The position numbers were made by a program, and so were the translations under genes. The notes below the pieces were generated by a model that did no database searches, was not told the DNA's origin, and saw only the letters and a list, made by a program, of their open reading frames with translations. Positions 12,445-15,223 of a DNA stretch of 64,000 bases are shown one piece after another. How positions within the stretch are numbered: position 1 is the stretch's first letter; the number at the start of each line of letters is the position of its first letter. This DNA is from an uncultured Paracoccaceae bacterium (GTDB lineage Bacteria; Pseudomonadota; Alphaproteobacteria; Rhodobacterales; Rhodobacteraceae): NCBI GenBank assembly GCA_947500135.1, contig CANMQX010000004.1, forward strand, positions 186,001 through 250,000, read 5' to 3'.

Positions 12445-13026
12445 TTAGCTGGGGGCGATCTGCACCTTGTCAAACACCAATTCGGAAATGACAGTTCCGC
12501 CTTCGTCAAGCCGTTGGACCGCCAGGATCAGGCCAAGCTCTGGCGCATAGTGATTTCGTGTACGGATGGTGCCGAGAGACGACGTCTGCGTCACATCGAC
12601 CACCCAAATCTGGTAGCGACAATCACCAATCTCATACGTGGTTGTGCGCGCATAATGCGCGGTGATCATCCCATTCGGAATATCGACACCACCCACTGAA
12701 ACGAACGCTTGTGACACCCAGGTCAACGTCTGATCAAGGCGGTCCAGATCAGCGACATCCGCAGAGAAGGACACAGGCGCGGAGGAAGAACCAACCGCCT
12801 TTGTCAAAGGATGAGGCGACATCAGCGCGTCGCCGGTGGTGTCGCCTGCGATGAAACGTCGTTCTGCGATCAGGCCGTTTGGCAATCTGCTATATTCCAT
12901 AGCGAAGCCTTGGGAAGTCTCCCGCAGGATGATCCCGTTTTCCAGATCAGTGCCGGTCGGGCAGCGGCTTTGCGCTGTTGTTGAGGTTGCAATCAACACC
13001 GCAACTGCCGCTGCCACAAAACGCAT
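12445..13026 (-). CDS. Secreted protein of unknown function, coupled to leuA
   Basis: 193 residues with a clear Sec signal peptide ([20 protein letters not shown]). The mature part has two cysteines (one in SRCPTGTD, one in GDCRYQIWVV) that could form a disulfide, and alternating hydrophobic strands suggesting a beta-rich fold. I do not recognise a family. Its ATG overlaps the leuA stop (ATGA), so it is translated with the leucine enzyme although nothing in it suggests a metabolic role. Confidence 0.75.
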   Translation of the reverse strand: MRFVAAAVAVLIATSTTAQSRCPTGTDLENGIILRETSQGFAMEYSRLPNGLIAERRFIAGDTTGDALMSPHPLTKAVGSSSAPVSFSADVADLDRLDQTLTWVSQAFVSVGGVDIPNGMITAHYARTTTYEIGDCRYQIWVVDVTQTSSLGTIRTRNHYAPELGLILAVQRLDEGGTVISELVFDKVQIAPS

Positions 13027-14585
13027 CAGGTTGCATCCTTGTAGCTGACACCTTTTACGTCATAACCCGGCTCGGATTGTTCCCGGCGGACCAGCAACCG
13101 GTTGAGCGCGTTGATGTAGGCCTTGGCGCTGGCGACGACCGTATCGGTATCGGCGGATTGGCCAGTTGCGATCCGCCCGTCTTCTTCCATCCGCACGGAC
13201 ACTGTTGCCTGCGCATCAGTGCCTTCGGTCACGGCGCTCACCTGATAAAGCTGCAACCGAGCCGCATGCGAAAACAACGCTTTCACTGCGTTGAATGTGG
13301 CATCCACCGGTCCGTCACCCGTGGCCGATGTTTTAACATCGGCGCCGTCAACCTCCATCACCATATCAGCCGTTTGCGGACCATCCGTGCCGCAGACCAC
13401 ACGCAGGGATTTCAGCTTGAGCCGGTCATCGCCACTGTCGTTTTGATAGACCAGCGCCATCAGGTCGTCGTCAAAGACCTCCTTTTTACGGTCAGCCAGA
13501 TCCTTGAACCGGACAAACACATCGTTCAGCTGATTGTCCGCCAGATCAAAGCCCAGTTCAGACAGTTTCGCCCGCAGCGCCGCCCGCCCCGAATGTTTGC
13601 CCAGGGGCAGGGATGTTCCGGACAGGCCGACATCCTCGGGCTTCATCACCTCGAACGTCTCGCGGTTCTTCAGCATGCCATCCTGATGGATACCGCTTTC
13701 ATGTGCAAAGGCGTTCTTGCCCACGATGGCCTTGTTGAACTGCACCGCAAAACCAGACACGGTCGCGACCCGGCGCGAGATGTTCATAATCTTGCGCGTG
13801 TCGATCTGCGTGTCATAGGGCATGATATCGCCGCGCACTTTCAGGGCCATCACGACCTCTTCGAGGGCCGTATTCCCGGCCCGTTCGCCCAGCCCGTTGA
13901 TCGTGCATTCGATCTGGCGTGCGCCGCCTTCAACAGCGGCCAGCGAATTGGCCGTAGCCATGCCAAGGTCATTATGGCAATGGGTGGCAAAGATCACCTG
14001 ATCTGCACCCGGCACCTTTTCGATCAACATACGGATCAAATCGGCGGATTCGACCGGGGCGGTATAGCCTACTGTGTCGGGGATGTTGATCGTGGTCGCA
14101 CCCGCCTTGATCGCGATTTCGACGGTGCGGCACAGAAAATCCTCTTCGGTGCGTGTCGCATCCATGGATGACCATTGCACGTTGTCACACAGGTTGCGGG
14201 CATGGGTGACGCAGTCATGAATGCGGTCGGCCATTTCATCTTGCGTCAGGTTCGGGATCGCCCGATGCAACGGCGATGTGCCGATAAAGGTATGGATGCG
14301 TGGCTGGCGTGCGTGTTTCACGGCCTCCCAACAGCGGTCGATATCTTTAAAATTCGCCCGCGACAGCCCGCAGATCACGGATGTTTTGGCGCGGCCCGCG
14401 ATTTCGCTGACGGCTTTAAAATCACCCTCAGAGGCGATAGGAAAACCGGCTTCGATGATATCGACGCCCATATCGTCCAAAAGTTCTGCGATCTCCAGTT
14501 TTTCGTCATGGGTCATTGTGGCACCCGGGGACTGTTCGCCGTCGCGCAGGGTGGTATCGAAGATCAGGACTTTATCCTTGGTCAT
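13026..14585 (-). CDS. leuA: 2-isopropylmalate synthase
   Basis: About 519 residues, full length for the long (LeuA type 1) enzyme that condenses acetyl-CoA with 2-oxoisovalerate in the first committed step of leucine synthesis. Seen: the catalytic [12 protein letters not shown], the metal-binding [13 protein letters not shown], and the C-terminal regulatory domain where leucine feedback inhibition acts. Two ATGs are in frame; the inner one at 14585 has AAGGAG at 7 nt, while the outer (14591) lies too close to it. It follows the cupin gene by 12 bp, so both lie behind the leader peptide described below. Confidence 0.97.
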
Positions 14586-14597
14586 GATCATGCTCCT

Positions 14598-14954
14598 TTA
14601 AATATGGTCTTTGGGGGCGGCGGGTCTGTCCGCATCGCCGGAATTGGGTTCGCCTTTGGGTTCGATCAAAAGAACTTTGACCTCTTGTTCGGCACGGGGG
14701 CGGTGTACGACGCCCTGCGGGACGATGAAAAGCTCGCCTGCGCTCACTTTCACACTGTCCTGACCTTCAAGGTCCATGAACATCTCGCCATTAAGGACAA
14801 GAAAGAAGTCATCTGTACTGTCGTGTTTGTGAAAGGGAAATTCGCCCTGAAACTTCACGACCATGACGTCGTTGTCGTTATAGGCGGACACCACTTTGGG
14901 GTCCCAATGGGTATCGAACAGGCTGAGTTTCTCAGCGAGATTGATCGTTTTCAT
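14598..14954 (-). CDS. Single-domain cupin protein
   Basis: A 118-residue cupin with both conserved motifs: HKHDSTDDFFLVLNGEM (metal ligands His/His/Glu-type) and PQGVVHRPRAEQEVKVLLIE with the last His. No signal peptide, so cytoplasmic. Small cupins range from isomerases to sensors, and the substrate is not evident. It lies between the leucine leader and leuA in one transcript, hinting at a link to branched-chain amino acid metabolism; that is inference from position only. Confidence 0.83.
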   Translation of the reverse strand: MKTINLAEKLSLFDTHWDPKVVSAYNDNDVMVVKFQGEFPFHKHDSTDDFFLVLNGEMFMDLEGQDSVKVSAGELFIVPQGVVHRPRAEQEVKVLLIEPKGEPNSGDADRPAAPKDHI

Positions 14955-14991
14955 GATTATTCCTTAGCTAGACGTGTTTTGGCGCTGGTCC

Positions 14992-15027
14992 CCTCTGAGC
15001 GGTCGCGCCGAATGGCACGCTCAGAGG
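14992..15027 (-). promoter_or_regulatory. Attenuator hairpin overlapping the end of the leader peptide
   Basis: CCTCTGAGCG and its exact complement CGCTCAGAGG (10 bp arms, 16 nt loop) lie right at the stop codon of the leucine leader ORF. The position fits a structure controlled by ribosome stalling. There is no U-run after the 3' arm, so it does not look like a plain intrinsic terminator; a different partner fold, Rho, or control of translation are open options. Confidence 0.6.
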
Positions 15028-15101
15028 CTGCTAAGAAGTAGGATGTCGCGCAGAAGCAGACCCTTAGGGCCTTTGCTGGGGATATGTGCGCAGTTCATCA
15101 T
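15021..15101 (-). CDS. leuL: Leucine-rich leader peptide of the cupin-leuA operon
   Basis: A 26-codon ORF too short for the track. The sequence is MMNCAHIPSKGPK followed by GLLLRDILLLSSL, so 7 of its last 12 residues are Leu, encoded by a mix that includes CTA and CTT. It ends at a TGA inside the first arm of a strong hairpin. This is the classic layout of an attenuation leader in which ribosome stalling on Leu codons senses charged tRNA-Leu; leuA leader peptides are known in other proteobacteria. No Shine-Dalgarno is visible. Control of leuA is inferred. Confidence 0.78.
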   Translation of the reverse strand: MMNCAHIPSKGPKGLLLRDILLLSSL

Positions 15102-15108
15102 GGCCGCA

Positions 15109-15114
15109 ACTATA
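15109..15114 (-). promoter_or_regulatory. Candidate -10 element for a leaderless leuL transcript
   Basis: TATAGT lies 7 nt before the first ATG of the leader peptide, so transcription would begin at or next to the start codon. No convincing -35 hexamer is seen at the usual spacing. A trp leader beginning at its AUG is known in Rhizobiales, which makes this arrangement believable. Confidence 0.45.
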
Positions 15115-15223
15115 CAAATGTTTCAAAGGTTGAAAAGTCATGAATTGCCGAAAGGCCGGGTTTTTGTGATCGGCCGGAACATCCAACACTTCGCTTCTGC
15201 GCAATTCAGGCTAGGCTGACCTG

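Follow-up and report, generated by a model that had tools for sequence, protein, structure and literature searches.

The leader RNA of leuA, the 2-isopropylmalate synthase gene, resembles the LEU element of Actinobacteria in the 64,000-nt stretch of Paracoccaceae DNA analysed here (the window), and it probably acts as a leucine-sensing translational attenuator. The Leu codons of a short leader ORF form one strand of a helix, P1, whose other strand is the Shine–Dalgarno (SD) sequence of the next gene; two further helices, P2 and P3, lie between these strands (Table 1). Judged from sequence comparison, the element is almost universal in the Rhodobacteraceae genera that we sampled.

The leader ORF (MMNCAHIPSKGPKGLLLRDILLLSSL) begins with two adjacent ATG codons, carries 7 Leu among its last 12 residues and has the codons CTA CTT CTT directly 5′ of the P2 hairpin. 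The original prediction had called this 26-codon ORF, its Leu-rich end and a TATAGT box 7 nt before the first ATG, and all three are present. A TATAGT- or TATAAC-like box occupies the same place in 98 of the 116 relatives with a leader, and in all 98 genera with a good box it stands 6–9 nt from the leader ATG (7–8 nt in 85). At the −35 position, relatives have a CTTTTC-like motif 17 (±1) nt from the −10 box. Such conserved spacing of the −10 and −35 boxes is what a leaderless leader would need. On the strength of the −10 spacing, the leader mRNA is probably leaderless, with its start at or beside the AUG, as had also been proposed. Across Rhodobacteraceae, the −35 position of the leader reads CTTTTC(ATT), not TTGACA. 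A search of the whole genome from which the window derives found the promoter-plus-ATG pattern only once.

A CATATC hexamer (His-Ile at codons 6–7) stands at a fixed distance from the ATG in approximately 60% of Rhodobacteraceae leaders. His is residue 6 in 62 of 98 leaders, and its codon is CAT in 52 cases versus CAC in 4, which points to a constraint on nucleotides. Many codons of the Leu run are CTT or CTA, which are used less in the neighbouring genes, where CTG dominates, and this bias would help stalling.

Table 1 Features of the leuA leader and the downstream genes in the window
Feature	Position	Strand	Remarks
−35-like box CTTTTC	15132..15137	−	17 nt 5′ of the −10 box; spacing of 16–18 nt kept in most relatives
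−10 box TATAGT	15109..15114	−	7 nt from its end to the first leader ATG
CATATC, codons 6–7 (His-Ile)	15081..15086	−	Constant distance from the leader ATG
Leucine leader ORF MMNCAHIPSKGPKGLLLRDILLLSSL, 26 codons, probably leaderless	15021..15101	−	Stop codon TGA at 15023-15021
P1 5′ strand TTCTTAGC, Leu-Leu-Ser codon region	15030..15037	−	RNAalifold and pair counts, compensatory changes
P2 5′ arm CCTCTGAGCG	15018..15027	−	Holds the leader stop codon; 99.7% of cells paired, 36 genera
Inner-hairpin arm TGCC	15014..15017	−	Rival of P3 for GGCG; MFE fold and RNAalifold
P3 5′ strand GGCGC, from the P2 loop	15005..15009	−	Pairs with 14985-14981; 94% of cells paired
P2 3′ arm CGCTCAGAGG	14992..15001	−	RNAalifold, pair counts and MFE fold
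P3 3′ strand GCGCC, 3′ of P2	14981..14985	−	Pair counts
P1 3′ strand GCTAAGGA, the cupin SD sequence	14961..14968	−	6 nt from its end to the cupin ATG
Cupin_2 protein gene, 118 aa	14598..14954	−	First gene 3′ of the leader; Pfam
leuA, 2-isopropylmalate synthase	13026..14591	−	HMGL-like and LeuA_dimer domains
Putative secreted protein gene, 193 aa	12445..13026	−	One-base overlap of its start with the leuA stop

To assess conservation, we sampled 150 genera of the same family, found leuA in 148 and read 135 regions upstream of leuA or of a cupin–leuA pair. An ORF with a Leu-run end was present in 116 of these 135 regions; the same detector gave 1 when run on the reverse complements and 0 when run on shuffled sequence, so that the leader is more than chance. 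All 116 leaders stop with TGA, and their typical end is LLLLSRL before the stop. A covariance model built from 36 leaders recovered the element in 15 of 16 regions in which an ORF test had found no leader and matched 98 of 100 upstream loci, some of which had been used for training. The ORF test and the gains from the model together place the element in approximately 131 of 135 genera. The same model returned no significant match in the genome of the window except the leuA leader.

The original prediction had given the gene order as cupin, leuA and secreted protein, which holds here; its cupin is not the typical target, and we rejected it as the usual regulated gene because it intervenes before leuA in only 8 of 150 genera, all 8 of which have the element. 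A cupin homologue occurs in 29 of the 150 genera and, beyond those 8, is located elsewhere than beside leuA. Pfam gave no match for the 193-aa ORF; the base that its start shares with the leuA stop suggests coupled translation. The genome of the window also contains a second gene with a LeuA_dimer domain (G000:C2:378723-379169), possibly a citramalate synthase.

The leader RNA contains three conserved helices. P2 is a perfect 10-bp hairpin (CCTCTGAGCG/CGCTCAGAGG) with the leader TGA within its 5′ arm. The 5′ strand of P1 is TTCTTAGC in the window and TCCTTAGC in most relatives, and its partner GCTAAGGA lies 5′ of the next gene. Both P1 and P2 were recovered by RNAalifold on a plain MAFFT alignment without being imposed. 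Compensatory changes were observed in P1 at alignment pair 12–104 (C-G 25, U-A 5, A-U 2, G-C 1) and pair 15–101 (U-A 23, A-U 9), and in P3 as a change from C-G to U-A in the pair counts of 36 genera. Single genera provide P1 helices of 11 bp each, such as TCCTTCTTAGC:GCTAAGAAGGA and CTGATCCTAAT:ATTAGGATCAG. Over the three helices in 36 genera, 95.6% of cells were paired, compared with 32–50% for slid partners, although the percentage is inflated for P1 because a good P1 was part of the reason for choosing the 36 sequences in the alignment; doubly changed cells numbered 24, versus 5.0 in shuffles. In a test on 116 genera before any such selection, the Leu segment and the downstream region of the same genus gave a helix score of 16 or more in 38% of genera; the figure was 13% when genera were mismatched and 6% when the sequence was shuffled. 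In the window, the stretch that begins at the Leu codons and runs to the cupin start has a better fold than shuffled versions of it (z −2.6), 3 of 200 of which did equally well.

Across Rhodobacteraceae, the sequences of P2 and P3 show strong conservation. P2 and P3 may form an H-type pseudoknot, or P3 may compete with the inner hairpin TGCC:GGCG, which is present in both the MFE and the consensus folds. The original prediction had correctly pointed to a leucine leader, a perfect 10-bp hairpin at the ORF end and a non-standard mechanism, and both the Leu run and the hairpin proved to be conserved (leader ORF in 116 of 135 genera). The hairpin is one of three conserved helices, and that reading did not include the P1 pairing, P3, the near-universality of the element or its likeness to the LEU element.

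We then examined where P1 falls relative to the ribosome-binding site. P1 was measured in five cupin genera, where it covers the SD of the cupin 5–10 nt from the ATG (counted to the second ATG in one of them, G127), and in three other cupin genera it lies at the cupin SD with similar spacing. When leuA comes first, the 3′ strand of P1 ends 16–25 nt before the AUG in 54 of 69 relatives, outside the SD proper, and lies at SD distance (6–11 nt) in 9 of 69. Literal SD masking is therefore clear only in cupin-type genomes and in the smaller part of the leuA-type ones; in most relatives with leuA first, the helix would press on the 5′ side of the initiation region.

The predicted probability that the SD of the window is unpaired rises from 0.02 without a ribosome to 0.69–0.74 once a ribosome occupies the Leu codons; for 75 genera, the mean rises from 0.09 to 0.54. 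This contrast supports translational attenuation. A ribosome at the stop codon is also predicted to open P1 in the window (0.73), such that the switch would work only if release is fast and re-initiation rare.

On these grounds, we propose the following sequence of events. The transcript would start at or beside the leader AUG, and ribosomes would thus begin without a 5′ untranslated region. When leucyl-tRNA is plentiful, the ribosome would pass the Leu codons, terminate at the UGA, which lies in the P2 arm, and leave. The Leu-codon segment UUCUUAGC could then pair with GCUAAGGA to form P1 and mask the cupin SD, with P2 capping the masked structure together with either P3 as a pseudoknot or the inner hairpin. 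When leucyl-tRNA is scarce, a ribosome stalled on the Leu codons would block P1 and leave the SD open, which would permit translation of the cupin and, through the close spacing of the two genes, of leuA. The off state would require both ribosome release and refolding, and slow leaderless initiation would favour both.

The closest known counterpart is the LEU element described for Actinobacteria in 2005, which has a leader with a Leu run, a base stem between Leu codons and the SD, a pseudoknot and an alternative hairpin (Seliverstov 2005; PMC1262725). In Streptomyces lividans, the leuA leader transcript is leaderless and without an intrinsic terminator (PMC8079986), which speaks for our reading; for Streptomyces coelicolor, mutation of the leuA leader is cited as having effects inconsistent with classical attenuation (Craster 1999, as cited in PMC1262725), which speaks against it; and leuA leaders have been listed for Corynebacterium (PMC5784534, PMC4046766). 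We compared our leaders with 80 leuA loci, nearly all actinobacterial, retrieved with a LeuA fragment as the query. The actinobacterial order is a Leu run, P2 (CCGCGACGGG/CCCGTCGCGG), P3 (GACCGGC/GCCGGTC) and GGAG before the start, and P2 and P3 are 96% paired with compensations. Both groups have a Leu-run ORF before leuA (with the cupin intervening in the window) and no U-run, a base stem in which Leu codons pair with the SD region, a nested hairpin and a pseudoknot helix in the same order, an alternative hairpin and leuA downstream. By contrast, the stop codon of the leader falls within the P2 arm here and after it in Actinobacteria, the P2 and P3 sequences differ, P1 ends 16–25 nt before the AUG in most leuA-first relatives, and the cupin comes first in the window.

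This likeness could reflect descent or convergence. Models from either group found the other at the right place. The Rhodobacteraceae model reached a best E of 5e-5 on the actinobacterial loci (Micromonospora), with 11 of its 12 matches in 227 kb at a leuA leader, and the model of actinobacterial leaders reached a best E of 1e-4 on Rhodobacteraceae leaders and only 0.83 on the window itself. These cross-group matches are real but weak in both directions. Convergence is a serious possibility, though short of probable: the Leu codons CTC and CTT are complementary to AAGGAG, and a leucine leader before an SD can therefore readily evolve the pairing from the genetic code itself. The weakness of the matches agrees with this, as do the leuA genes, which differ between the groups, the actinobacterial query having returned almost only Actinobacteria. 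Convergence accounts less well for the fact that the two groups agree in how all three helices are ordered and spaced and in a CTTAGC–CGCC block. We more tentatively suggest that the LEU element is a single RNA class, ancient or transferred, common to Actinobacteria and Alphaproteobacteria. Its Leu codons would be the anti-SD strand around a pseudoknot, and exposure of the ribosome-binding site would be the direct readout of a leucyl-tRNA shortage. This would be a ribosome-gated translational attenuator that is absent from Rfam and unlike both classical attenuation and known riboswitches.

Searching 337 Alphaproteobacteria genomes yielded 18 model matches outside Rhodobacteraceae, 11 of which, in 11 different families, lie directly before leuA; most of these 11 leaders have a Leu run followed by Cys or Arg-Pro and then the stop. 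The other seven, which do not precede leuA (L173, L175, L176, L178, L179, L180 and L185), were treated as chance. Nearly all matches in a phylum-wide model search fell in Rhodobacteraceae; a weak match (E 4.6e-4) was found in another family of the phylum (G630:C22:42868-42955). Reyranella (Alphaproteobacteria) metagenome-assembled genomes (L226 and L229) have an actinobacterial-type leuA, 88% identical over the query and preceded by a different short leader (MLRLTTLRLIG), possibly owing to gene transfer or contamination.

The main rival to translational attenuation is Rho-dependent control of transcription. When leucine is replete, the untranslated structured stretch would undergo Rho-dependent or pause-assisted termination before leuA, which a stalled ribosome or alternative P2/P3 pairing would prevent, with P2 as the 2:3 helix and P3 as the 3:4 helix of the classical switch. 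The classical order is indeed present, with a leader, a 2:3-like P2 that holds the stop codon in segment 2 and a 3:4-like P3, and P1 lies 5′ of the SD in most leuA-first genomes. In Corynebacterium glutamicum, total starvation brings a brief rise in the RNA levels of leuA and leuL (PMC6892785). However, P3 consists of just 5–6 pairs around a large loop, the covariation between Leu codons and SD in cupin-type genomes is left unexplained, and no U-run follows any helix in 116 genera. A terminator scan of the window found no T-run or terminator-like site after the helices, and the longest T-run was at most 4 in 115 of the 116 genera with a leader. The missing U-run noted in the original prediction thus extends to the relatives, which is why we regard the mechanism as non-standard. 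Overall, we consider control at the level of transcription unlikely.

Still less likely is that the fold serves to bind a protein or small ligand, with the peptide being incidental. Seliverstov 2005 left the mechanism of the LEU element open and argued for a protein partner from the helicase-like ML1624 family (PMC1262725), and the strong conservation of the P2 and P3 letters would fit such a site. However, ML1624 orthologues have been reported only in Actinobacteria (PMC1262725), whereas the element is also found in Alphaproteobacteria, and a pure protein site would not need the conserved P1, Leu codons and promoter-to-ATG spacing. Classical attenuation at an intrinsic terminator, as in Escherichia coli leuL, is very improbable: a Leu-rich leader and a strong GC-rich hairpin do precede leuA, but neither the window nor the relatives have a U-run, and the Rfam 15 covariance models, leu leader included, gave no match for the region at E up to 5 and no relevant match for the relatives or the actinobacterial loci.

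Translational attenuation, the reading that we prefer, bears on how actinobacterial leuA is controlled, a matter to which the 2005 description of the LEU element could assign no mechanism. The element is present in almost all Rhodobacteraceae genera sampled and in 11 further families of Alphaproteobacteria, which provides a large independent set with covariation, and the good laboratory genetics of Rhodobacteraceae (Rhodobacter, Ruegeria, Phaeobacter) make the mechanism directly testable. The principle is simple: because CTC and CTT complement AAGGAG, the very codons with which a leucine leader senses can also hide a ribosome-binding site. In the literature searched, outside which lies the likeliest place, Lopatovskaya 2010 (Mol Biol 44:128; cited in PMC4833913), we found no earlier account of the element in Alphaproteobacteria. 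Its kind is already known from Actinobacteria; we found no description of its alphaproteobacterial presence, the stop codon in P2, the leaderless-type CTTTTC promoter or the cupin insertion with its SD on P1.

Among other known systems, the trpL leader ORF of Sinorhizobium meliloti is likewise an alphaproteobacterial leader read from the mRNA 5′ end (PMC10117765). Unlike its rnTrpL, which is a product of transcription attenuation, the leuA leader has no terminator U-run, and its Leu codons form a base stem. E. coli leuL is also a leucine leader peptide before leuA with ribosome stalling as the presumed sensor; the leader described here differs in having no U-run terminator and no Rfam match, and in its additional P1 and pseudoknot. 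In the ermC and cat leaders, a ribosome stalled on the leader ORF frees a masked SD sequence. The leuA leader would work alike, with no sequence relation claimed, except that its signal would be a shortage of leucyl-tRNA rather than an antibiotic.
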